Shown: positions 7,304 through 49,380 of the stretch, one piece after another
How positions within the stretch are numbered: the stretch's first letter is position 1
Layout of the letters: the number at the start of each line of letters is the position of its first letter
Assembly: GCA_021030905.1 (NCBI GenBank)
Contig: JAGFMI010000021.1
Location: 62,001 to 126,000, forward strand
Length of the DNA stretch: 64,000 nt
Direction: 5' to 3'
DNA from: Pyrenula massariospora
Lineage: Eukaryota; Ascomycota; Eurotiomycetes; Pyrenulales; Pyrenulaceae
Program-made: the position numbers and the translations under genes
The notes under the pieces: generated by a model
What the model was told of the DNA's origin: nothing
The model's input: the letters and a program-made list of their open reading frames with translations, nothing else
Databases searched by the model: none

Positions 7304-9262
7304 ATGACAGACAAGTCTGAAAGACCCATGGCTCCTCGGAAAATACCTTCTCGCCGATCCGCGAGGGTTGCGAACGGGTCATCACCGAACACAGCGCCAA
7401 AATCTATCAATCCCCATACTTCACCAGAACTAACAACTGATAATCAGATCACTCGACCATCCAGCTCTAATGTGGGAAGCGGCAAATCTGCGCAAACCAG
7501 GACCCGACGTGGGGCTATTGTGAATCAAGAATGCCCTAGCGAAGCGACATCGCAGCATCAGAGCTCAATAGATGCTGGAGGCGTTACGGCAAATGGAAGT
7601 TTGGAGCCTGCCATAGGAAATCGAAATAACTCCTTTCATAAGTCCCTGTCAGAAGCTACGCCCAGGTCTTATACCATGAAACAAACCCCTAGAATCTCCA
7701 AGGATGGTCACCAAGGGCTACATGAAAATACCAGATTGCGTCAGCGTAACCCAATACAAAGGGAAAATGTCAAAGCGAAAGTTTTAGCGAAGTATCGTGC
7801 GGAAGATCACGGGCGTACTGGAAGAGCCCAAAAAGAGAAATTGTCTGCCGAAAAGGGCCAAGCTGGGAGTCAGGCCTCATCTCAACATCATCGCAGAGAG
7901 GACTCTAGTGACAGAGGTGGTGAAGTGGAAGAAGATTTACAAGCTTCTGGCGCACGGTTTTCTACGAATGCTGACCCAGCAAATACTTCTAGCTCCAATC
8001 CTGGTCCTCCAGCTCCATTGCAAGGGCAGTCATTGACAACAGAGAACAAGGCTCGGGCCCATAAACACTCAAAAAAACGAAAAGCAGTCGAAGATCAGAC
8101 GCCTAACGAGCAGGATGAAACACAACAACAGAGAATACCATCGGGAAGGCGGCAAAGTAAGAAGCTTCAGGAGGGACAGCCAAAAGGTTCTTCGGAGCCA
8201 GCTCATACAGGTGCCCATAAAAAAAGGAGGCGTCAACTTACCCCTGAAGATGCTGAAGCGAGTGAAATCCAACCGTCGATAACCACCATGTCCGAGATGA
8301 CAAAAGACTCGGGCTTAGGGCAGATGTCACGGCGCGAAACCCTATTACGTCAGGTAGATTGGACTGCAGTCAATGAGCGTGAAGAACAAGATCACGAAAA
8401 AGAGAGACGTGAAGAGAAAGAAGCACATGAAGAGGAGTTGCGACGAGACAGACGTCAACCCTCAAACGTCCTCCAGGAAGGAAATGGAGGGCAGATGAAC
8501 GACGGGCCGCGTTTAAGATTACTAAACAACGAACTCATTTTAGATGAGACTAGTCAGTTCATAGACGAACATGCACAGACTCTCGAAGTAGCCGAGGAAG
8601 GACGTGACGCCCTGAACGAGTCGAATCTTACGAAGCGCGTCAACCAAGCCACTATTAAGCCCAGGCGAAGGAAATCGCGACCTATTGTATGGGATGAGGA
8701 GAACACAGACAAGTTTTACGAAGGGCTGAAAATGTTTGGTATTGATCTAAGGATGATCGCTAGTCACTTCTTCGAAGGACTCGATCGGCACCATCTAAAA
8801 CGAAAGTATACGAAGGAAGAGCGCGTCAATCCACATAAGATACAGGCAACGTTGTCCGGGCCTCGAAAAAGCCTGACAAAGGATGAGATGCTGGCCATGA
8901 CGAAATACGACTACGAAGATCCAAAGAAGATATACGCACGGATTGAGGAGCGAATTAAAGAGCTCGAACAGGCGCAAGCCGAGGAAAACGAGGAAGAAGT
9001 CAATGGCCAGGATGATCGCCTGCGCAAGAAATCAAAGCCTAGGGCGTCTAGGAGAGAAGATTCATCCACTCACAATAATGAGACTCCAGCAGCTGAGGCA
9101 AACGGGTACGATGAGGAAGTCAGACGAACCGTTGAGGACGCTACAGCCAGTCGCAAGAAGCCCAGGAAATCAACTACTGTGAGAAAGAAAAATCAACGAC
9201 ACAAGGGTGCTGGGGGCGGGACGGAAGAAATTCTTGGCTCAATTGAGGATGTGCAGCTGTAG
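7304..9262 (+). CDS. BDP1: TFIIIB component B'' (Bdp1)
   Basis: Bdp1 is the SANT-domain subunit of TFIIIB, which recruits RNA polymerase III to tRNA and 5S genes. The single exon encodes 652 residues. The first 450 are charged and low-complexity, rich in Arg, Lys, Ser and Gln. The diagnostic SANT/Myb domain is near residues 455-505: RPIVWDEENTDKFYEGLKMF followed by GIDLRMIASHFF and KRKYTKEERVNPHKI. After it come a helical segment and a basic tail. The start may be the ATG at 7304 or the second one at 7328 (ACCCATGG, better context). An upstream ORF from 7231 ends at 7320, between the two, so initiation at 7328 is plausible and would remove eight residues. Confidence 0.9.
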   Translation: MTDKSERPMAPRKIPSRRSARVANGSSPNTAPKSINPHTSPELTTDNQITRPSSSNVGSGKSAQTRTRRGAIVNQECPSEATSQHQSSIDAGGVTANGSLEPAIGNRNNSFHKSLSEATPRSYTMKQTPRISKDGHQGLHENTRLRQRNPIQRENVKAKVLAKYRAEDHGRTGRAQKEKLSAEKGQAGSQASSQHHRREDSSDRGGEVEEDLQASGARFSTNADPANTSSSNPGPPAPLQGQSLTTENKARAHKHSKKRKAVEDQTPNEQDETQQQRIPSGRRQSKKLQEGQPKGSSEPAHTGAHKKRRRQLTPEDAEASEIQPSITTMSEMTKDSGLGQMSRRETLLRQVDWTAVNEREEQDHEKERREEKEAHEEELRRDRRQPSNVLQEGNGGQMNDGPRLRLLNNELILDETSQFIDEHAQTLEVAEEGRDALNESNLTKRVNQATIKPRRRKSRPIVWDEENTDKFYEGLKMFGIDLRMIASHFFEGLDRHHLKRKYTKEERVNPHKIQATLSGPRKSLTKDEMLAMTKYDYEDPKKIYARIEERIKELEQAQAEENEEEVNGQDDRLRKKSKPRASRREDSSTHNNETPAAEANGYDEEVRRTVEDATASRKKPRKSTTVRKKNQRHKGAGGGTEEILGSIEDVQL

Positions 9263-20600: not shown

Positions 20601-21974
20601 TCACAACGTTTGCGACCATGATTGCAATGGTGTGCTCTGCTGATATTGAGAACGAGCATAATCACCCATCGATCCAGACCCGCCGTCAGCGTAAAATTGA
20701 GGCTGCCTTTCCGAGCCGTAAGGTAGTTGCGAATCACGGCGATCGGCCATCTGAGCAGGCGATGCCTGATGTGACCTTCGCGGCTCCATGGAAGTGGTAT
20801 GATTGGCTGCATTCATCGTAAAACCGCTGGAGCCGCGATCCAATGTGACGGGACTCTGCGACATGCCCGGTCTTTGCTGCATACCGGACTGTCCGTACAA
20901 CAGAGGATGGCTAGACGTTCGCTCGGGTTGTGAAGGAGGTAATGATGTTTGTAGGATAGAAGGCATATTAGAAGTCACCGTCGTTATCGGGGTCTGGCTG
21001 CCAATACCACCATAGTTTCCCCGATACGCTGCCTGATTGTACCCGCTATAATCCTCATTTTTCACGTACTGTGGATTTGTGGCTGCATTTGGCATGTAAG
21101 ATTGCTGCGGCGCCGACATTGCCATGGGGTAAGCAGCATTATTGGAGCTCGCGTTCTGAGGAAGGGTGGCGTACGTGTTCGCAGGAACTTGATAATAGCC
21201 CCGAGGTGCATTCTGAAGGTAACCTTGTGCCGCCATCATATTCGAAGGGTACATGTAAGGGGCTGAAGGGTCTCTCGGATCCATAAGGTCGTCCGATGGT
21301 TCTTCCACCGCAACTCTAAAACTCTGCTTGTGGAGAAGCTCGTGGCGCGGCTGAACATGCTGAAGATTCAGGTCATTTTTAGGTGTTAGGAGCTTGTTTT
21401 GGACCACGTCGTCACAGCTGTAGTAAGAAACAAGATGGTGAGTGACGCCCGTGACAGTAACGCTCATTGTTTTCTTCACAAGACCCTGCTCTTTGAAGCC
21501 GTAAGAGTCGACCAGCGATCCTACCAAAGCGCGCTCTGCCTCCGCCGCCGACCTGTCTGTTCCATTGTTTGGGCCAGATGCACTCTTGGGGGAATATGCT
21601 TCGCCGTTCTGGTCTGTCCGAGAAGTTGAGTACGGCTCTGGCCTGATTTGACGCCTATTCTGCTTCTTCATAGCTCGTTTTTTCTCACCGGGTGGGAATG
21701 GCTTATCAAGTTCTCGATAAATGAGGAAGTTACCCAGAATCCGGCTGGGACTCCACGTCACGCCGTCGGTCCATCGTTTGATCCCAGACGCGTTCTCTTC
21801 GTATATGAATACGCAACCGCTTCGAATTAAATTTGCGCGTTCGCGGTCGTGTGGTCGTCGGGGGACGTGATGGAGATGGCCTGTGAGGCAGGCCTCAAAA
21901 AGCACTAAGGCATCCTGCGTCGAGCTGATATGTCCTTCATACGTAGGCTGCAGTGCGGCAGCACCGCTCGCCAT
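20601..21974 (-). CDS. Gti1/Pac2 (WOPR) family transcriptional regulator
   Basis: Fungal-specific DNA-binding regulator of the family of Wor1 (Candida), Ryp1 (Histoplasma), Sge1 (Fusarium) and Gti1/Pac2 (fission yeast), which control morphology, conidiation, effector genes and virulence. Intronless, 457 residues from MASGAAALQPTYEGH. WOPRa spans about residues 9-104, with ISSTQDALVLFEACLTGHL, RSGCVFIYEENASGIKRWTD and WSPSRILGNFLIYREL. WOPRb lies near 165-210 (KKTMSVTVTGVTHHLVSYYS). The sequence is so close to the Wor1/Ryp1/Sge1 branch that I place it there rather than with Pac2. The C-terminal 240 residues are rich in Tyr, Asn, Gln, Ser and Pro. An in-frame TTG extension upstream is not conserved. 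It has a very long gene-free upstream region. Confidence 0.95.
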   Translation of the reverse strand: MASGAAALQPTYEGHISSTQDALVLFEACLTGHLHHVPRRPHDRERANLIRSGCVFIYEENASGIKRWTDGVTWSPSRILGNFLIYRELDKPFPPGEKKRAMKKQNRRQIRPEPYSTSRTDQNGEAYSPKSASGPNNGTDRSAAEAERALVGSLVDSYGFKEQGLVKKTMSVTVTGVTHHLVSYYSCDDVVQNKLLTPKNDLNLQHVQPRHELLHKQSFRVAVEEPSDDLMDPRDPSAPYMYPSNMMAAQGYLQNAPRGYYQVPANTYATLPQNASSNNAAYPMAMSAPQQSYMPNAATNPQYVKNEDYSGYNQAAYRGNYGGIGSQTPITTVTSNMPSILQTSLPPSQPERTSSHPLLYGQSGMQQRPGMSQSPVTLDRGSSGFTMNAANHTTSMEPRRSHQASPAQMADRRDSQLPYGSERQPQFYADGGSGSMGDYARSQYQQSTPLQSWSQTL

Positions 21975-24900
21975 TTGGAATAAAGAATGAGGTAGAGGTT
22001 CAGCAAGGTTCAGCAAGGTTCAAATACCCGGAAGGCTCTCTGAACACTGTAGCAGGATGTGGAACGAGAAAAAGCTTCGGATGTTGGTTATCCAATGATC
22101 GCCTCCGCGGAGGCTGAACAGCGGAGCGCACTATAGTCAGGGAGATCGGATATATTCTTTTAATGATGTTCAATATCCAGCTAATTGTGTGGTAGCCAGC
22201 GAACTCTGTCGTTTTTAAGAATCAAATATGGGCGGTAGATATTGGTGGAGAGGGCAACAGAGACGCTATGAATGTCGATCCTGGGGATGTAGAAGAGTAG
22301 GTGGGCTCCTGAAAGGATCGACTGGCAACCACTGCGAGCAACGCGCCCCTTCCGCCGACCGAAAGTCAAAAAACCTCCGATTTTCAGATCTGGTGGTAGC
22401 AATGATTCCAAGGTCCCGCAGACATGAGCTAGGGCTGTGTGAGCATCTGGACTGGCCCCATCTTCAAAGCATTCTGGTACGCCTTACTGCAGCATGCAAA
22501 ACTCCGTTCTCCCAAAGTCGACGTGAGCCGTTCGATTTCACGGGCGTTTGGGTCGCACAATGGAATTACGATAGCGGCGGTCAAATGCGCAGATTTTGAG
22601 GACCAAGTGGGGAGTATCCGGTGAGCGGCGGTTCAGAATTGGGGCAACCAAGTAGCACCGAGTTCTCTGGGTCCGCTCTTGAGCTCACTTTCGTCGGGAA
22701 GTGGCCTGTTGTACAAGAGGACAATGTTAGGATGATGAGACTATAATGTCCAAAAAGAAGAGCGGAATAGTTGCCAGGACTGCTTAACGGCGCGTCCCTG
22801 CACGTGTTACCGCCATGACTCGCAAGGGCCAGCTAATCAGCCCAAACACAATCTGGGCGTGATCGAGCTAATTGGACAGGCCACATCGCTGCCATGGCGA
22901 GGACTTTTCATACAAGGACAAGGCGTGCCCAATACGGCAGGGGGGGACGGGGTGTTGGCCCATGGGTAGAAATGGACGTAGCCATGCCTAGAGAGCCGCC
23001 GCCAGCCCTTGGTGGTAGCCTAGTAGGGCATGGAGAGCACCGGACAAATGAAAGCCATTGACGATGTACAAGCCAGGTACTGAAGGCCCTAAGAGAAATG
23101 GAGCTCACCTGGTAGGAAGGGATGTTGAGGAGCACAGACGGAGCTGGCTCAGACACCACGACGATGGGAGACTCTGGATAAGGCCAAAAGAAGCAAGAAG
23201 GGCAATAGAGACCAGCAGGGGTCCGGAAGTTTCTGGCGATGAAACGGTTCGAGGAGCCGAATCTGTCGAGCGTCGAGCTGAAGCGTTAAAAGCTTAACTT
23301 GGGGGACAAGGGGGAATAGAGTTTGGGTATTTTGCGGAGGTTGGTGCCATAGGGTCCAAGAAGCTCGTCAGGCGGCGTTCAGTTGTTCGTCTCCATGGGG
23401 TTTTTGAAGGGTCGAGGTCGAGAGAGAGGGTCGACTCAGGAGCTACGGGCGTGGATCAATGTGGTAAGTGATAAGTGGTCAGAGGGAAGGGGGTGGGATA
23501 GGGATGTGTAATGTTGAACGCGTCGCTTCACGAGCCCCGGTCGTTGTAGTAGGGACCTCTTCTTTGGGGACAGCGGGTCCGCGGAATCAAGGACTGGCTC
23601 GTCCACGGCGATTCTCTACCAGGAGTTGAGCGAGAAGGGAATCCAGGACTGGAGAGAAGTCGAGCCAGCTGCTGCATCGAGGCACGGCCCACTTTCGGCG
23701 TCGAGAGCTAACAAGACCCTCTTTCTCGCGACCAGGCGGAATCTCCCACCCCATTTCACGAGGTCACTGCAATGCCAGCGACGGCGGGCCCTCCGCAGTA
23801 CGCTGCCCCCTCGGATTGATCAACGGCCCACCGCGATCATTGGGTGAAGGCGTGCACAGCCAGCGAGTGCAGCGGGGACGTGGCAGATCAAGATGCTGAG
23901 ATGGCCTTCCCGGGGAGTCCCTGGCAGACCCTCGATGGATCACCGCGCCGAAGCACCTGGGGGCCATCTGTGCTGGGGTCGACTGGGCTAAGGGCCGGCT
24001 GCGCGCCCGCGAGAGCTAGCGATGTGCAAGAGCTAGATGCAATTGCCGGAGGTCTAATTTGTACAGTACTCACTCCCTCTTCACTGCTGGGCCATCTTCC
24101 GGCGTCGGCTACCTTGTCTTTGCCCGGATCGTGACGGCATCAACATTGACGGAACAAGCGCTGGCAATGCTCAGCGGAGACCCTAAGTTGATGGGCTTTC
24201 TCGTTGTTGGTTGCTTTGGTAGAGTGCGCTTCTAACAGGCGCCAGACAATGCTCCTACATCCTACCCGGACGACGTGGCTGACGCTGCCAGACAGCACTC
24301 CTCCCAATCCACCCTCTCGCCCCCATGACCGTGTTTCCAGCCGCATCGCTTGTGGAAAGGGGCTTAAAAAAGAATCAGGGAGAGGACTAGTTGTCAGCGC
24401 ATGGTTTTGCGAATCACCGTTTCACTTTTAAATTGTCTATTGTTTTAGAAGAATTGTTCCAAAATCCTGATCTTTCTTGGTAGAGGTTACAACCGTGGCA
24501 ATGATATCATACGGTCACCACAGCAAGCTGAAGTCTTGTGGTCTTTGTTGTTGCCAGACCTGCAGCAATAACCAAATACAGACGGCCGCTTAGGGGTTGC
24601 TATCTTATTTCGTAGGACCTCTAAACCACTCATCTATGATTGTGATAAGAAAGACAGCAAGAGTGTCTCTTGTAAAGTCTCTTTAATACTATCGTCTAAG
24701 GAGTATCTCACTATGGAAAGTATAGCTGTTTCCGTGCGTACGCACATGGTCCAGGTTGGTCAGCTCTTCCCTCAATATTCGTCGACTAGAGCTTTCGGTC
24801 CGCGAGGAGTTTTCCACATCTCTCCATAAGATGATAGTCGTTGGTATCGGGCAGCTGGGCAGAGCGAGAAGCGGAAATTAGTCCTGATGCGGCATCCATA

Positions 24901-27900
24901 TCCGTTCAACGAGTTCAGGGACATGGCTCTGATTTCACACAGACGCTATTCCTGTCGTCCTCAACTCTTGTCCCCCGGGTATGCCCGTCCGCGAGCCTTT
25001 ATTGCGGAGCATAAGATGGGCTTATCTATCTCCTGAACACTAAATACTGCTCCGTGCCCTAGAGTTTGACGGTTCCAACACATCTCAAGCTCTCCTAGTC
25101 TGTGCGCCGACCATGGCTCAGACCGTGGGTCGTCAACCGCAGTGAGAGGCAGGTTTCCCGCCCCAGTGTCCGGAGCTTTAGACCCGTTTCCGGGTTTGGT
25201 CTTGTATATCAAAGAACTTCGGAACCCTGACAGTCCGCCTATAAACGTCATCACATATTCGATTGCAACAACAAGGAGGGTTGGGGCCATACCATCATCC
25301 ACTTTTTAAGCCCCGGAGAAAGCTGTGTAGAGGGGATCTTTAAAGTGTGCGGATACCACTATGGCTTTTGCGGAGACGTAGGAGAATAAATAGCCGGCTT
25401 TATGGTGCTTCCTCTGTGAGCACTGAAATATCCAGGCGATAGTTGCATGTTGTTGCACAACCGCAATCATGGCGTAATGGCGTACGACGGTCGGTTTGCA
25501 AACACGCCATCGATCCGTAGCCATGGTCATGTCTCCACGCTATGAAATGGCCGCAGATAATGGCGCGGTGGCCATCTCCGTTCCCGATCTCACCATTCAC
25601 AATGCTGCTGTCATATGCAGTTATATGCACCGGTGGTATTTGGACAACATCGCAGTATCAAGCCAGCTCACGACTCTGGGAAATCTACCTAGGCTCCCTC
25701 TCTCTCTCTCACCGTTGCGAATGTGGTGTGCAAGGTCAGGCCGACATTGATGCCTGAGATACCCTAGCTGCAGAATCACACGGATAGCGCGGGCGGGGGG
25801 AACTGGAGAAGAAAGCCGTTCTCTCAGGGTTCAAGGTTCGGTGTGAGGGAGGAATGAGAATACCTTGTGCTTAGCGTCATCTTGAAGCAATGGTAGACTA
25901 GGTCAAGCCTGGTTGACCTAAAGGCCCCTCTTATTGGTCTTTTCACCTTATTGCGCTCATGGTTCCTGATCAAGAGCTAGGTCCAACCCGGCTAAAGAAC
26001 GTGGACGGGTCGGCGTATTCAGTATATTGCCAGCAGCATGCAGCCTGAAGTCATTTTAAAATAACTAGTCATGGAGATCATGTTGCTGGAAAATTTCTAG
26101 ATCGGAGGCAGCATTCGAGATGTCCAAGGGCTGTGCGATGCCGATGACGAAGCACCACTGCCATATCCTCTATCTGAAAAAGGCTCCCCACCGGAAGGTT
26201 TCAAGTCATCAGACCTAACGAGTGGGAAGTGGTTGGGGTAGGCGCAAAGAGGGAAAGTCAGCAGAGTCCCTGCTTCGTCGTTTTCGGCGGCTTTGTCCCT
26301 CATGCAGGGCGAGCTTCTTTCTGATGATAGTCCATCCATGATTCCATAGCGCTATGCGTCGATCAACAAGTCTCTTGGCCAAGTGACTTCCTGGGCAACC
26401 CGCTCCCCCGACGCTGCGCTCTCCACTCTCACCGTGGACCATCAGCACAGCTAAGTGGTGGACATCGTTGACCTTGGCGAATCATCGTTCCTAGCCCTGA
26501 TCACCAATGAGGTTCGATCCGTCTACCGTGGCTAGTCCTTCCTCATTATGTCAGCTTCGGTTGTCTATTCTCATACTTGTGGCTGGTTAAATTGACGCCA
26601 GACGCCATTAGTTGCGAGTACATTCGGAGCTACCGGCCTAGGTTTCATTGCGGACATTCCCACTGGATGACATGGCCGTGAACCGGGCCTCCAGAGACGT
26701 GGGCCATCGACTCATCCGACAGCGAATCGCAATTTTTGATTCGCCGCGTCTCAAGCTGCTCTACTTTGCATGCAAACACTGCCCGTCTAGTCCTCCTCAA
26801 TGAAGTGAGCATAGTGGCGGTGGCTTGTGGTTGACTTCGCCCGTGGACGGAATGGCTTTTGAGCTTTCGGAACGTCGATCTGAAGATCTTAGCAATTTAG
26901 TGGCCGTCTTCATTCATTGCCAGAGCCCTTGATGCCCTGATCTCTGAGAGCTCCCCTCACGCCCATGCACAAGCTGCGTCTGCCGGCCCCAGAGTGGTCC
27001 GCCGCTGTTGGTGGCGACGAAAGCTGAAGGGGCTGGCCAACAACAAGCCAGCAACCCCTACAGGTGAGCCAGGATCCCCTCGACATCAGTCTTCCCGGGG
27101 AGAATCCATGTCTTGGCAGCCTTGGCAGTTGATGTCGGCTATCAAATGACGCCTGGGCCCTTCAGATGTTGAAATGCTTTGGGATAGTAGCTCCGAGGTC
27201 TGGTGGACAGTCAAACCCAATTGCCGAATGGCGAGAATGAGTATTTTGGTCACTCTAGGCGTCGATTTTAACGTTTAGGTGCCGAGCAAACCGCACAATC
27301 TTGCAAATCTTGAACACTCCCAACGCCTGATCTACAAAAATACGAACACCCTGGCCGCTTCGAGACATCACTGTCTTACTGATATCTTGTCGGTTGAGCA
27401 TTGATAAGGTGCCCAAACCATTTTCTGCCTGACAGCCGAGGCAGGCCTGATAACGTGACCTCTCCTGACCACTTGTCGATCTCGTGGAATTGAAGCCCAA
27501 CATCCTCTTGGGTCAGGGGCTGAACTAGCCCTTTTCCGAAGAATCAATTTGTTGCCGGAGTCTCAATTCCTTGAGCGTTCGAAATCCTCCCTACTGACAG
27601 CATCACTCCAAGCTCTTCTCGCCCTCCAATGCTCATTCATGGGATGTCAATACCAACAGGCTAATGACAAACACACTATCCACACGAAATGCCTACCCAA
27701 GGGCCTTATCGAGAGACGGAAATCTGATACCTATTCCCGCCATGCTTCGTCGGCCACCTCTACCCTATAATAAGTATAATGTCTTGGAAAACAGATCAAA
27801 TATTGAATCAAGAGCCCCAAGACGTTGCTCTGAACGCCTTCATTGTTGTGCCTAGTAGGAAAAGGGTTGTGAAATGATCGCTTGACACAGTGTTGGCCGA

Positions 27901-28272
27901 ATCCCCAGAGGCAATTGTTCCCATCCTGCGCACAGTGACAACGAAACAGTTGGTAACAGTCAGTCAAACAGTGCATCTCTTCAAACTGCCTTCACACATT
28001 CAACAGCTCGATGCTATACGGGATTTGAGTTTTGCGCCTGCTCTGATGGTCTCGGAAGTAGTGGTCTTGCTTATCATTATCAACCCCACTCTACAAAGCC
28101 TCTGTTGTCGATAAGGCTGCCCATCAGCGATTACCAGAGATTATGTGTTGTCTCAATGCTATACCAACACAACACAGGATGTAAGATGTTTGACTTAGTA
28201 AGATCACGATTCAGTGCAATTTTACTAGCACTCGTTCCAGAAAACTGGTGCCCGGGCCTTTCAGAACGAGGG
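21975..28272. promoter_or_regulatory. 6.3 kb gene desert upstream of the WOPR gene
   Basis: No ORF in either strand over 6.3 kb shows a recognisable domain or credible codon pattern; the longest are about 120 codons and overlap randomly. Base composition is ordinary (not AT-rich), so it does not look like RIP-degraded repeats. The flanking genes are both on the reverse strand, so this is the WOPR promoter plus probably a long 5' leader. GTGAGT/GTGAGC donor-like sites on the reverse strand occur (for example near 24068 and 23104). Pyrimidine tracts occur, for example around 25696-25713. WOR1 and RYP1 are known for unusually long upstream/leader regions; here that is inference by analogy. Confidence 0.6.
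21996..22022. repeat. Tandem 10-base repeat next to WOPR start
   Basis: Two full copies and a partial third copy of AGGTTCAGCA, ending 22 bases upstream of the WOPR ATG, so probably in the mRNA leader. Confidence 0.85.
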
Positions 28273-30177
28273 TCACAAACCTCCCATAAAGAACCACGGT
28301 TTCGAATTATGATAAGTTTGTCCCGGGTATTCCATAGGAATCGGTATTGCGGCTTCGAGTTTTGCAAATCCGTCTTGAAAACTCTTTTTCTCTTTCTCCC
28401 TTTCATGGGTATTGCGAACGGGAAAGATGACGCCACATTCCCAATTTCGCAGGTTAAGTTTTGGCTGCCTTGTTTTCCTGTCTTGAATTAATTTACCCCT
28501 GCAAATGTTAGCATTAATTTGTGGGCAAAATGCGGCGTACGTAATATGGTACCATGGAGCATGGCTCATGACTTACCATGCACTCTCCGATAAGTTGGCA
28601 CTTCCAAGATAAGCCCACGCTTGACACGAGGATCCGTCCTTGAGCTTCAACTGCTCTTCCGTCCTCGCCAGCAGTAACTTTCATCAATTAGCAGAAATGG
28701 TATGGTATGAAGGTATGGATTCATCACTAACTTTGTTGTGCATTAACAATCCACTCCTTCGGCTGGCACAATCTCTCATGACATGCCGGGGGAAATCGGA
28801 CTTCGTCCACCATTGCTCCTGAAAGCAAATGGTTCCCGCGTTGTTCGGCCCACCTTTTGATTGTTTAACCGTTTTATCGGTTGGGAAATATACGTTGAAT
28901 CTTGACCTCCATTGGTCAGGATCCTTCTCCTCCGTGTTCAGCTGGGACTGCTTAGATCCGTGCGCAAAAGAGCTTTTAGGGTTTCGTATGGCATATGCAG
29001 CGAGGCCACCATCGCCCTGAGCAGCCATATACATTGAGCGGAGAAAGCCTTCTGTGAGAGCTCCAATTGAAGATGTCACAAAATCAAGGTGCAACAGTCG
29101 CCGGGTGCAGAGACCTAGCTCTTGAAGAGCTGTTCCTAATCCGCAGAGACCCGTCCGTTTCCAGTCATCCTCGCTATGAGAACCGCCGATAGAGTGAACA
29201 AATCCTAGATGCGCTGTTCCTGAAAAATCAAAAAGCTTGACCTTCTCTATTACATCATTCTGCAAGCCCATGGAATTGAGAAAACGGAGTAGGTACTCTG
29301 AAAACGAGGTTTTTACCGGCGCTGCATTTTCTCGTAGTATGGGCAGGTCAATAAGGAAAACTAGATTTTCCATCACACCGGTCTCACCCCAATCATATTG
29401 TGTCAAGTTCGCAGTGGGCACAACAATGCGCAACCGGGCCTCGTAGAAGAGTAGCATTAATTTTGAGTGCATACAATTTACCTGCCCAGGCATGGGCGGG
29501 AAACACAATCTGAGATTCTTGATTGCTGAAGTCTCCTCGCGATACTGCCGTTGTGTCTCAGCATCCTTAGCTTGCATTACGAGGACAAGTTTTGTGCGTT
29601 TAGTATCCAACTTCGTGAACAACCAGTCCATGTCCCACATGAAAGAGCTCAAAACGGCTGCTTGAAGCTCGTTCCTTTGAATAACTTCCTCAATTTTAAT
29701 ATCCTGTCCTCGGGTATAACCAAAGACCCATGTCTTTTTAATCATGCCACTTGGATACAGGTTCTCTCGCTCTTCTTTTGACCCGTTCTTCTGCTCTGTA
29801 GGCAGCTCTCCTTTCACTTGCGGCATTGGCAGTTGGCCACTTGCCGGCATCGGGGCCGCACGACTACGGCGGTTGAGTGGTGGCGGAGAGATATGGCTTG
29901 TCTCACGCTTCCTCTTCAGTCTTTCGAGGCGGGCAGCTTCATCGGCTTTCCTATCTAGGCCGGGTATCCCAAAGCCGCCATGTGCAGTGACTTCGGGTCC
30001 GGGATTTTGCTCACGGGGAGAGCCAATGTTGACTTCAGCTTCAGTGATGCACTGACGGGGATCTGACCTCATTTCACGAAGGGATAGTGCGATTGCAGCC
30101 TTGAGATCCTCGTCCTCTGACTCTTCCGGAGCGACATTTGGATCCTTTTCGGTGGTTAAATCAACGAAGTTGTCCAT
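28273..30177 (-). CDS. TDP1: Tyrosyl-DNA phosphodiesterase 1
   Basis: Nuclear repair enzyme that removes stalled topoisomerase I peptides from DNA 3' ends. Exons 30177-28732, 28677-28577 and 28498-28273 (phases 0 and 2) give 590 residues. The start MDNFVDLTTEKDP leads into a ubiquitin-interacting-like helix (DEDLKAAIALSLREM), as in fungal orthologues. First HKN motif: His237 and Lys239 in NCMHSKLMLLFYEARLRIVV with Asn in PTANLTQYDWGE. Second HKN motif: His480 and Lys482 in LLMHNK, with Asn510 in AYLGSANLSESAW. The first intron falls directly after catalytic Lys482, so without it the second motif is lost. The end, KPWFFMGGL, is typical. An upstream in-frame ATG at 30348 exists but its 57 residues are not conserved. 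Confidence 0.95.
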
Positions 30178-43862: not shown

Positions 43863-45694
43863 ATGAAGGTTGGTGACTCATTCAGCGCTGCCCTTGTGGC
43901 GCTTACCTTTCTGTTTTCAAGTTCTGTCCTGGGCCAGCTCTCTGGAAGTGTAGGACCGACAACCTCAACTGCGAGCAAAGCCGCTAAGAAAGTCTGCAAC
44001 GTGCTGAACTATGGAGGTGTTGCCTCGACAAGCTCCGATCTTGGTCCTGCACTAGCATCTGCTTTTGCCGCTTGCAAGAGCGGTGGAATAGGTACGTGAA
44101 GCTCTACGGTTAGCTTCCAACAAGACACTTATCTCTTGCAGTCTACGTACCACCAGGAAACTATGGCATGTCAACGTGGCAGACGCTCAATGGTGGAACG
44201 GGCTGGGCTCTTCAGCTTGACGGTGTCATCTATCGAACTGGGACGGCTGGCGGCCACATGATCATTGTACAAAACGCCAACGATTTCGAATTCTTTTCCA
44301 AAACGTCACAGGGTGCAATGCAAGGTTACGGCTACTCCTTCCTGTCCCAAGGAACCTATGGTCCTCGCCTTGTCCGCATCGTCACATCAAATCATTTTTC
44401 GTTTCATGATATAAAGCTGGTTGACTCGCCTGCGTTTCATCTCATCTTAGACAACTGCCAAAATGGTGAGTGCGAAAGAAGCCAATTGCCATCTCCAAAT
44501 TTTGATACGGAAAGACTGATGTCCATCGAACGCAGGGGAAGTATATAACACTATCATAAGGTATTGCGCTGTTCAGTTATAATATTAAGGGATGAGACGT
44601 CGTTTCTAACACTCGATCAGGGGCGCCAATAAGGGTGGTCTTGATGGAATGGATGTTTCCGGGTCCAACATCTGGGTTCATGACGTTGAGGTCACCAACA
44701 AAGACGAATGTGTCACCATCAAAACCCCAGCGACCAACATGCTCATCGAAAATATCTACTGCAACTGGTCAGGCGGATCAGCATTCGGCTCCCTTGGCAG
44801 CGGCACCGCCATTTCCAATATCGAGTACAACAACATCTACACCTGGCAGTCTAACCAGATGATTATGATCAAATCCAACGGAGGCGACGGGTACGTGCGT
44901 GACTGCACATTTTCGAACTTCATCGGCCACTCTAACGCCTACGCACTTGACATCAACGAGTACTGGACCGATCGAGCTTTAGACCCCGGAAACGGCGTTG
45001 TGTTGTCCAACCTCAAATTCTCCAACTTTGCAGGCACCATCGTCGACCCCAAGCGCGCCACCGTCCAGGTGCTCTGCGCCGACGCCGCCCCCTGCACCGG
45101 CATCTCTCTTTCGAACATCAACCTCTGGTCCGACACCGGCGCCGCCTGCCATTACAGCTGCGAGAGCGCGTACGGATCCGGCGCCTGCCTCCGCAGCGGC
45201 GCCGGCGGCTCCTACACCTCGGCGAGCACCTACTCGAGCGCCCCCGCCGGCGCCACGAACGCTGCCAAAATGCCGGCTGACCTGGCGTCGGGCCTGGGCG
45301 TCAGCGTGTCCATCGCCATCCCCGCGACGATCCCGACGAGCTTCTATCCCGGCGTGTCGGCTATCAGCAAACTGTTGAACGGGAGCGGGGGCGGGGCCGG
45401 GGGGACCACCGTCGCTGGAGGCGGCGGAGCTACTAGCACCACGTTGAAGACGACGACGACGGTTGCGACGACCAAAGCGACGGCTACAACAACAGCTGGG
45501 TCGGGCTCGGGCGGGAGCTGCGCTGCAGTTTACGGGCAGTGCGGTGGTTCGGGATGGTCTGGGTCGACATGTTGTGCGAGTGGGAGCAAATGTGAGTTTC
45601 CGTCAAATAAAGTCATCAGCAACCGCTGCTAACATGGATCTATTCTCTAGGCACCTACAGTAATGACTACTATTCACAATGTCTTCCTTCTTAG
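43863..45694 (+). CDS. Secreted rhamnogalacturonan hydrolase (GH28) with C-terminal CBM1
   Basis: Extracellular pectinase cutting the rhamnogalacturonan backbone. Exons 43863-44091, 44142-44465, 44536-44560 (25 bases), 44621-45591 and 45651-45694; 530 residues. A signal peptide (ALVALTFLFSSSVLGQ) is followed by a parallel beta-helix with rhamnogalacturonase landmarks: YGGVASTSSDLGPALASAF, GANKGGLDGMDVSGSNIWV, VTNKDECVTIKTPATN, CNWSGGSAFGSLGSGT (in place of the GHG of polygalacturonases) and MIMIKSNGGDG. A Gly/Ser/Thr-rich linker leads to a cellulose-binding CBM1: VYGQCGGSGWSGSTCCASGS, then KCTYSNDYYSQCLPS across the last intron. Reading through that intron would replace the CBM1 end with an unrelated short tail. 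Function by family; linkage specificity untested. Confidence 0.93.
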
Positions 45695-48350
45695 GTAGCA
45701 ACTCGGTTTACGCAGTTCTAGGAAGTGAGCGAATTGAACGAAATTGACCATTCTCAACGAGAATTCTTTGTAATTGAGTGCTGCCACAGCGTAAATCGGA
45801 AACGTTGCTCACCGCAGGAACCACCAATTTTTGTGTGTCTGTTCCTCATAGCATCCTGATCTTTTACTTGCCTTTAACAACTCTCCCATCAGGATTCTGC
45901 GCCGTAAACCTGGTTCTTAGCAGGGGAGATCCTAAAGCAATATTGTACAACAAGTTAGCGGCAGTCTCATTGCGGTAGGCCCATCTAAGATAAGACAGTA
46001 GCACCTTTTTTTCTTGTCTCCCTGTATCCTTCTAGCCCTCCACAACCGGGATTCTCTCGGTCCCTCTCCTCGAAGACAGCGTCGTGGAGGCCGTTGACAT
46101 CAGAAGAGTTACGTCAGCACGCGATGAGAAATTTGCGGCTGAGGTGTCATTGGGTGCGTCTGTGGAAGCCTGCCTATTTAAGTGCACGCCACGTGTATGA
46201 ATAAGGGAGCTGTGCGGAAAGGCATTGTGCAACATTGTAGTGTAGTTACCTCTCGCAATTTCTACGAGTCCGAAAATCCCCCGGCCGCGCGCCATGCTTC
46301 CTTTTCTCGCTTACGCTCCGCCTCCCTCCGCCTACCTCTCACGTCCTGGCCAAGGGTCCATATTCTCCTTCCGCCTTCTTCGCCCGCGCCTTTTTATCCA
46401 ATTACCCTTCCGACATTTTTAAGACATTCCCCTGCTGAAGCCTTCTCTCTCCCACATCTCCTTGGCATATTCTCCTTCCGCTTCCCCGCTCACCTCGTTT
46501 CCAAAATTTCCACCTGATAAATGTGCCACGCATCTCTCCTCGTTTCAATGCACCGGCTGCTGTTCTTTCCGATTCCTATGGTGGCTGTAAACAGCTTATA
46601 TTTACCGCGGGGCTGAATGTGGCAAATCCAATGATTGGCACGCCGGATTGGGAAGTACTATCTAGGACAACCGACAATGAGAAGGCGCGGCACTCTGACA
46701 CAGCTCACAATATTCTGTCATACATTGTAGACGGCACGTGTAGAGACTAAGAGTGCACATGTGATAATTGTCTGTCCGTCACGTACTGGCCGCCAGTTTT
46801 CGGGCCTGACGCAGATAGCCACTGTAGTCGTGATGCGGAGTTCACGATAGCAATAGTGGGGTGAGGAGGACCAGCAAAATACCAACAACGAGAAAGTGTA
46901 CGATGTGAAGAAGGAAAATAGGCGACAGCAACGATAATAAACAACGGCGACGAAAACGTACGGCAGCAGCGATGATAGTGGTAGCTGTCTCATTTGGTAC
47001 AGTGTGAACACTCTCTGCTGTGGGTAAACGTGGCTTCGCGTAGACTGCGGGCCATTATGCACAAGGAGGGATCATGGCCAAGGTACCGCATCTGATAGCT
47101 ATGTTAAAAGAATACGAGGCGGCTCTGATAAAAAGCATCAAAAGCCGATCGTGTGAATGAGACCCTGATGCCCTGGTCCTACAGCCGTAAGAATGCCTTG
47201 GCTTCAGCCTGCGACAATGACAAATGTGAGGTAGTTAGGACAGGTATGCGACTCCCATGGCGCATTACCACGCCGGAAGCGCCAGAGAAAGCACTCACAG
47301 TGGAAGACTGGTGGTCTAGATGTCGACATCCTTGCCATATCCCCGACGGAGGCCCAAAAGGTTCGGGTTGCCTGACGGGAACGTTTCACAGGCGCAACTC
47401 CTCCACGTGGCTTTTGATGTCATCCAGGACGAGCCTTGCTGGGATCGCGATCTGTTCGAGAATACTGCCACATTCGGCCGAGGGTTTTCGGATACGAGTA
47501 ACGCGGCGGTTCATTTCGCGCAACGGGCCTTTGTAACTGACAAATCCCGCTTCACGTAAGACATGAGTCAGGCGGCCCGTAGCTCGGGATTCAAACTTTA
47601 TTGATGGACGGCAATATCAAGATCGACGCTGCGAGATTTTTTGGGACCATTTTTGGTGTCGAGTCCCAGAATAGGAGGAATGCGCCGAACGTTGTGCGAC
47701 CTGGAGGGAAAGGTGAGATCGATGAGCACATGGCGTGAGGCGCGGTACCTGCAGCTGACGGCTGTCTGCAGCGTGTATCTCGAGAACTTGGCAACGTCGG
47801 TAGAGAGCGTGATTTTCATCCCAACATTGTTCAACACAGGCTCCAAGGTATTATTCAGCAGGGGCTGATACCTGGCCAGACGTAGAGAGCCATTTTTTGG
47901 AATGGTATCTTACCTAATGGTCGACGGGGCATCAGCAATCACGAGGTAGTCCGCATGCAGAAAATGGGAGTTGCTGGAGATCGGGGAAGGGAATGGGTGT
48001 GTTGGTTTCAGGCGGTAGGAAGGGGCCGTAGGGCGTTCCCGGGCGGGTTTCTGGCGATGAGAGCCTAGAGTTGCCCGACGAGCACGCCCAGAACGGCCCC
48101 CCAAATGTCTGACTTGGTGGTCAGGGTTGGAGGAGAGGTATCTTGGTCTCCAAGCATCCACGAGAGGTTCAGCAGCTCGCTGAGGGACCTCGCTGGAGAT
48201 TGTGACAGATGCCTACCGACCTGATAGGGACTCACGCCTTGTCGGCGCAGAATCGGCGGACCCTGTTCTGCTGCTCTCCCGACTATTACGGGCCTGTTGC
48301 GGCGTCTACGAGTCCACTCACCACGCGCCGGAAATGAAATCGATGATCCG

Positions 48351-48404
48351 AGATGATTTGATTTGATGTGATGTGATTTGATACGATTTGCTAATTGATT
48401 GATA
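48351..48404. repeat. Degenerate GATTTGAT/GATGTGAT tract
   Basis: Imperfect short repeats of the type GATTTGAT and GATGTGAT over about 50 bases in intergenic DNA; slippage-type simple sequence. Confidence 0.6.
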
Positions 48405-49182
48405 ATTGCCTAGGAACGAGCCTATCACCGCGCGCACTGGCTAAAAATTCCCTAGGCAACAGGCTCTGCAGTGGTCGCGTTCTCACGGTCTTAACAAAGC
48501 CATCATCGCAGTGACACAGCCCCCAGTCCGGCTAATCGGGCTTCGCTCCAGGCTTGGCCCCTCCATCCTCCGCTCCGAGCGAACTCCCAACACCCTCTTT
48601 GCTGACCTTTTGCAAGTTGCGGCTCCTGGACGCCGTTTAAGATGCTGACACCCACTTGGTTTCTTTTCTTAGCCATGACGGAGCGCCGCTACGCTGGTCC
48701 ACCAATCTATGCCATCTTCGGCAATATTCCTCGCAGCTGAGACCTGGCCATTGGTTGCCGCTGATAACGAGCACGCCCGTTAGGATCGCCATGTGCGTCT
48801 GATCCTACCCACGGCGCTGGGTCTTCGTGTCAGGTACCCGGCGCTGCTCACCACCATCGACCATGCAGCCCTATTGAATCACCTACAGTCCTCAGCCTCG
48901 CAGCTGGCTCACCCTGCCCCCCTGCGCGATATTCCTGAATTAAGACGTGGATGACTCAGTTGGCGCGAGACTAGGTCCCAGCGGATGTGGCTTGCGAGGC
49001 CTTGCGCGGCTCCACTTTCTAGGCCCCAAGGCTTCATGGTTTGCCTATTCCTCGTGGTGGCTGCAAGTGAGACTCATTCTGAGGAACCCCTGGGATCATG
49101 ACTGACGTCGTAGGGCGAAGGATGGGGAAAGGACTATGTTCGTTGCCTGGAAGTAGTGACTATGGCGCGAGCCGTTGGGGCC

Positions 49183-49191
49183 TGATATAAG
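49183..49191 (+). promoter_or_regulatory. TATA-like element of the small ORF gene
   Basis: TGATATAAG about 190 bases before the ATG at 49381. The following 160 bases are CA-rich and purine-poor, as in leaders of well expressed fungal genes. Confidence 0.45.
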
Positions 49192-49380
49192 ATGCCTTTG
49201 ATATCCGGCCTAAGTTTCAAGACATCAAACATCCTCACATCGACAATATCCTTCAGATCCAATCCTCAAGTTCTGCCTACCCATATACAAAACAATCTTC
49301 CTTCACACACACAAAAAACATCCAATCTACACACCATCCAACAGACCAACCGATCCTCATCCACAACCACCACTATCGCA

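Follow-up and report, generated by a model that had tools for sequence, protein, structure and literature searches.

Several described WOPR regulators have long upstream DNA, long untranslated leaders, or both, and we take these genes, as presented in the accessible parts of the papers cited, as the points of comparison for the locus analyzed here. In Candida albicans, WOR1 has a 5' untranslated region of 1,978 nt and about 6 kb of upstream DNA bound by Wor1, the intergenic regions that Wor1 binds are about five times their expected length, and antisense transcription was seen opposite the WOR1 leader in white cells (PMC2924316). The 2-kb untranslated region of WOR1 is said to lower translation efficiency (PMC8546583). 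Likewise, ros1 of Ustilago maydis has a long upstream intergenic region in which six Ros1-bound places were located by ChIP (PMC4917244). The osaA gene of Aspergillus nidulans gives mRNAs of about 3.2, 2.8, and 1 kb, of which the long two surround a 1,422-nt open reading frame (PMC4567300) and so leave 1.4 to 1.8 kb untranslated, 5' and 3' portions together.

The WOPR gene studied here lies in a window of 64 kb (bases 62,001 to 126,000 of contig C13, in an assembly of 37.8 Mb and 33 contigs), the gene content of which we judge to be that of a filamentous fungus. Like WOR1, with its leader of nearly 2 kb, it encodes a WOPR regulator and has about 6 kb of intergenic DNA upstream; unlike WOR1, whose leader comes from RNA-seq mapping and whose upstream DNA binds Wor1, it has a leader predicted from sequence and shows no enrichment of the WOPR motif. 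Likewise, ros1 is a WOPR gene preceded by much intergenic DNA, but whereas ChIP revealed six bound regions there, no motif cluster appears here. The coding length is similar to that of osaA (1,374 nt with the stop, against 1,422 nt). In contrast to the 6.3 kb upstream of the window gene, osaA complementation constructs carried 1.6 kb of 5' flank in A. nidulans (PMC4567300) and 2 kb in A. flavus (PMC12845751), a hint that a distal region might be dispensable in relatives.

The preliminary description of this DNA had likened the locus to WOR1 and to Histoplasma RYP1, as genes with large upstream regions and long leaders. The comparison with WOR1 is right. That with RYP1 holds in one respect, in that the DNA upstream of RYP1 is bound by Ryp1, Ryp2, and Ryp3 (PMC3720256), but a long RYP1 leader found no confirmation in the accessible text: the longer-leader genes named in the accessible text of the Histoplasma study are RYP2, RYP3, WET1, and MS95, while RYP1 is given there as a yeast-enriched transcript (PMC4503680). 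What the present gene shares with the Histoplasma longer-leader transcripts is membership of the developmental regulators, a long (here predicted) leader, and possible control by upstream open reading frames (uORFs). The upstream region is not mentioned in the accessible part of a paper on Coccidioides Ryp1 (PMC9015156), and the literature on long upstream regions or leaders of filamentous-fungal developmental regulators, as far as its text was accessible, yielded nothing of use beyond the papers cited here.

We consider it most likely, with a probability of roughly 0.6, that the stretch in question is the upstream region of the WOPR gene and consists of distal cis-control DNA plus a long, uORF-bearing 5' leader. 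No other reading fits better, and what is described for WOR1 and, in part, for ros1 and osaA is consistent with it. Such an arrangement is not new in kind, having already been reported for WOPR relatives; it would add one WOPR gene to the set of regulators that have a far larger control region and leader than the genes around them, and it changes no concept.

The gap upstream of the WOPR gene

The WOPR gene runs on the minus strand from an ATG at 21,974, and its domain is complete, with protein residues 11 to 186 matching positions 1 to 168 of the 168-position PF09729 profile in a Pfam search. No relative of the protein was found among bacterial and archaeal genomes or viral contigs, as is expected of a fungal gene. 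The upstream neighbor, in the same orientation, is a Tdp1 gene (PF06087). Its long frame ends at 28,684 and covers only positions 2 to 352 of the 445 in the profile; a further frame at 28,273 to 28,572 matches positions 385 to 444 (Pfam E value, 3.1e-6), and an intron-like stretch from 28,576 to 28,499, with an intron score of 23.4, adjoins this last exon. Because the last exon ends at 28,273, the coordinates of the coding-free gap from the WOPR start to the Tdp1 stop are exact: 21,975 to 28,272, or 6,298 bp, precisely the 6.3-kb gap claimed in the preliminary description. The features of the locus are the following.

20601 to 21974, minus strand: WOPR (Gti1/Pac2) gene, a single open frame of 457 codons (PF09729, E value 9.7e-65)
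21975 to 24052, minus strand: candidate 5' leader plus core promoter, the sense strand being pyrimidine rich and ATG poor; an upper limit for the leader, the signal being most pronounced as far as about 23,575, with transcription predicted
21975 to 22374, minus strand: proximal leader-like stretch with no sense-strand ATG in its two 200-nt bins (C+T, 0.585 and 0.58)
22384 to 22495, minus strand: cluster of five short uORFs of 2 to 13 codons, from a uORF listing over 2,100 nt; none reaches the main frame
23710 to 23924, minus strand: dispersed-repeat relic of 215 bp, one of three copies located in the genome; identity of 78% with C28:910436-910665 and, across a shorter segment, of 70% with C30:1159250-1159376
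24053 to 28272, no strand: distal coding-free DNA, a candidate cis-control region that includes the Tdp1 3' flank; Pfam empty in six frames and coding scores at null level, the control role being presumptive
28273 to 28498, minus strand: last exon of Tdp1 (PF06087 positions 385 to 444, with the intron-like stretch 28,499 to 28,576 adjoining), the far edge of the gap and outside the control region

The gap is free of detectable protein genes, confirming the earlier statement that it holds no credible open reading frame. With stops masked as X, all six of its frames were searched against Pfam and returned no family at an E value of ≤0.1. For coding potential, we trained a hexamer model on 60 long open reading frames of the contig (30,914 codons). 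It found seven segments scoring at least 8 in the gap, where a Markov null (477 segments in 300 kb) would predict about 10, and the best of them reached 12.6; the flanking genes reach 100 and 109 in the same model. Across the 64-kb window, there was no tRNA and no Rfam family at gathering score.

Two frames were considered as hidden genes and rejected. A plus-strand frame of 201 amino acids (27,886 to 28,491) had no Pfam match and is partly antisense to the last Tdp1 exon, and a frame of 100 amino acids (22,181 to 22,483) had only a sub-threshold match to DUF3917 (E value, 0.0097; 16.8 bits against a cut-off of 25.1).

Within 256 kb of contig C13, this gap is the longest of 145 without coding sequence at a coding-score threshold of 14 (runner-up, 4,156 bp) and the longest of 113 at a threshold of 18 (runner-up, 4,971 bp). 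It measures 6,775 bp in the coding scan because the scan misses the short Tdp1 exon, and the other gap lengths are upper estimates too, since further short genes are overlooked in the same way. The composition had been called ordinary and not RIP-like. The second part of this stands, with a TpA/ApT of 0.67 and a (CpA+TpG)/(ApC+GpT) of 1.32 lying near the 0.64 and 1.28 of the whole window; the first does not entirely, as the composition is not uniform and the DNA from 23 to 24 kb is 58.6% GC with a strong strand skew.

A candidate leader with short uORFs

Asymmetry in pyrimidines and in ATG triplets is a mark of fungal leaders and core promoters, and the part of the gap next to the WOPR gene has it. 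In 200-nt bins counted upstream from the ATG, the C+T fraction of the sense strand is 0.555 to 0.645 over the first 1.6 kb (except for 0.485 at 400 to 600), about 0.52 up to 2 kb, and 0.395 to 0.54 beyond. The cumulative C+T excess peaks at +290 at 2,078 nt. None of 2,000 shuffles reached this value, and 19 further upstream regions of the contig, measured in the same way, did not go above 157. Within the same 2,078 nt, the sense strand has 19 ATG and 41 CAT triplets (binomial P = 0.006). The 2,100 nt upstream contain 19 uORFs, of which not one extends into the main frame.

The gap, its lack of detectable genes, the strand asymmetry, and the uORFs are observed; transcription of the leader, translational control, and a control role for the distal DNA are what we infer. 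The proximal 1.6 to 2.1 kb would be transcribed with the WOPR gene as a long 5' leader carrying many short uORFs, and these could lower or time WOPR translation through scanning followed by reinitiation across the last ~400 ATG-free nucleotides. The distal ~4 kb would serve as cis-regulatory DNA gathering several developmental inputs. Provided that the leader exists, it would be simple to test whether uORFs control a WOPR protein in a filamentous fungus.

The suggestions in the preliminary description that the leader might be spliced, or that the gap might hold a non-coding RNA, found no support. Under an intron model learned from just 29 inferred introns, the best candidate in the leader scored 18.9, below the median of 19.95 for the best candidate of shuffled leaders (300 shuffles), and the antisense control scored higher, at 23.6; a stricter intron consensus scan returned none in the leader. 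An intron picked by eye (GTGAGC at 23,108 to CAG at 22,706) scored 17.3, likewise under the shuffle median, and was rejected as unsupported. As for a non-coding RNA, besides the absence of Rfam families from the window, the fold of the proximal 526 nt is not unusual (z = 0.32; 64 of 100 shuffles fold at least equally well).

A perfect 10-bp tandem repeat of 2.7 copies (21996 to 22022) lies close upstream of the WOPR ATG.

Upstream regions of other developmental regulators

The preliminary description had presented the WOPR gene as alone in having so long an upstream stretch. This is true within the window but not genome-wide, where a second WOPR gene and one velvet gene also have long upstream stretches. 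The second WOPR gene, on contig C11 (E value, 4.5e-43), has an ERV1 gene upstream, identified by Pfam. About 7.5 kb separate the end of the ERV1 open frame at L026:1,547 from the WOPR ATG at L026:9,122 (C11:1743747-1751321), and within them no Pfam match was above the cut-off, DUF5657 being sub-threshold (E value, 0.024). Four weak coding segments with a score of 14 lie in this stretch, and small genes without a Pfam domain are therefore possible there. In the coding scan, this gap becomes 950 bp at threshold 14 because of a weak segment and 9,122 at threshold 18 because the scan misses ERV1. The velvet gene, also on C11, starts near L027:1,470. Its upstream gap is 7,310 bp long in the scan but would shrink to about 5.5 kb should the weak segments at 1,861 to 2,241 (score, 12) and 7,803 to 8,186 (score, 13) be genes; the six frames of L027:2,320-8,492 gave no Pfam match at an E value of ≤0.01. 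The upstream stretches of the second WOPR gene and the velvet gene are thus gene-free less securely than the gap in the window.

The STE12 gene has an upstream gap of about 4.5 kb, which reaches an FSAF1-like gene (PF15375; E value, 1.1e-8). Leader-like asymmetry is found upstream of both STE12 (C+T excess of +307 over 2,257 nt, with 26 ATG and 40 CAT) and the second WOPR gene (+307 over 1,257 nt, with 7 ATG and 25 CAT). The paralogous WOPR gene and STE12 probably belong, too, with the regulators that have a far larger control region and leader than the genes around them.

Long upstream gaps are more frequent among developmental regulators of this genome as a group. We compared eight of them (one WOPR, four velvet, two APSES, and one STE12, the WOPR gene of the window being excluded) with those gaps of contig C13 that measure at least 300 bp, and the regulators' gaps were longer at both thresholds, 14 and 18 (Mann-Whitney P = 0.002). 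Since the scan misses short genes, any gap length in this comparison that lacks a Pfam search behind it is an upper estimate. At threshold 14, gaps of at least 3 kb precede three of the eight regulators and make up 4 of the 103 contig gaps (P = 0.008); at threshold 18, the corresponding fractions are 4/8 and 10/90 (P = 0.014), and the regulators that fall short of 3 kb are both APSES genes together with two velvet genes.

Two short words stand out among those over-represented in six regulator upstream regions: GCATGCA, with 18 occurrences against 5.6 expected and present in five of the six, and GAAACAAA, with 7 against 0.2 and present in three. Thousands of words were compared, and the P values are uncorrected.

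Motifs, a repeat relic, and readings of the gap

A scan for clusters of WOPR-binding motifs, which the preliminary description had proposed, found no enrichment in the gap. The WOPR core motif TTAAAGTTT, as given in the accessible text of PMC4567300, has no exact occurrence there (0.11 expected) and two with one mismatch (2.06 expected), the background being 116 kb of non-coding DNA. Such a cluster, the plainest mark of autoregulation that sequence can give, is thus missing, although its absence is compatible with WOPR binding, as many Ros1-bound regions are reported to lack the motif (PMC4917244, accessible part). Genome-wide, TTAAAGTTT occurs 381 times and its reversed control word 692 times. 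Among the matches listed, TTAAAGTTT is dense near one end of contig C6 (C6:2256-43536) and in parts of C4 (C4:1052447-1233028), places that are perhaps AT-rich or repeat DNA.

The other patterns scanned, apart from shortenings of the WOPR core, were used in what we take to be their accepted forms, including SYGGRG for CreA. This last pattern occurs 34 times in the gap against 21.2 expected (P = 0.006, uncorrected over 19 patterns, in a gap that is GC-richer than the background). A blastn comparison of the gap with five other regulator upstream regions revealed no shared sequence above background.

The dispersed-repeat relic falls in the GC-rich part, where the leader-like stretch approaches its upper limit. 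A search with the C28 copy returned the same three places (the other copies being L004:1501-1730 and L005:1501-1627), 70 to 80% alike over parts. The relic is probably old, because its identity to its kin is at most 78%. The rest of the gap had no other match in the genome in a search skipping common words and simple repeats, and the gap has no direct repeat of 14 nt or longer. We considered the relic as a shared promoter module and rejected this: judged by open frames, the copies on C28 and C30 both lie between converging frames, so the relic looks like a dispersed element and not like a shared promoter.

These observations bear on what else the gap could be. It might be mostly passive DNA, that is, a promoter and leader of moderate size beside 3 to 4 kb of neutral sequence from decayed genes or mobile elements, as the relic, the background level of WOPR motifs, and the lack of anything shared with other regulator upstream regions would allow. 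This reading, although the most serious of the alternatives, seems unlikely to us: past the relic, nothing in the gap has a matching place elsewhere in the genome (within the search as described above), the six frames contain no domain remnant, there is no RIP signature, and long upstream gaps recur at several other developmental regulators of this genome.

A separate transcription unit, either a long non-coding RNA, such as one antisense to the leader, or a small orphan protein gene, appears less probable still. The antisense transcription opposite the WOR1 leader (PMC2924316, accessible part) offers a precedent for the former, and a coding scan that missed ERV1 and the last Tdp1 exon can overlook short genes of the latter kind; set against this are the absence of Rfam families and tRNAs from the window, a count of coding segments no higher than the null predicts, a six-frame Pfam search that came back empty, and the lack of any domain in the longest free-standing frames. 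We regard as very doubtful a more elaborate scheme in which the relic was co-opted as the WOPR core promoter and both WOPR genes, the velvet gene, and STE12 have one common layout of long control region and long uORF leader. That the gap owes its length to a recent insertion can be given hardly any weight, since the one repeat relic that speaks for it is no more than 78% identical to its kin and hence probably old, no second copy of the rest of the gap was found, and direct repeats of at least 14 nt are absent.

A control region with a long leader thus remains our preferred reading. The preliminary description had put this as a large control region or a long leader, and its proposal keeps the ~2.1 kb of leader-like asymmetry and the parallels with WOR1, ros1, and osaA on its side, with the missing motif cluster, leader intron, Rfam family, and unusual fold on the other.

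The window has a second large coding-free stretch, at 45540 to 49257 (3.7 kb by the coding scan). One frame was searched against Pfam, without a match; the frame beside this stretch may resemble a polygalacturonase with a cellulose-binding end.
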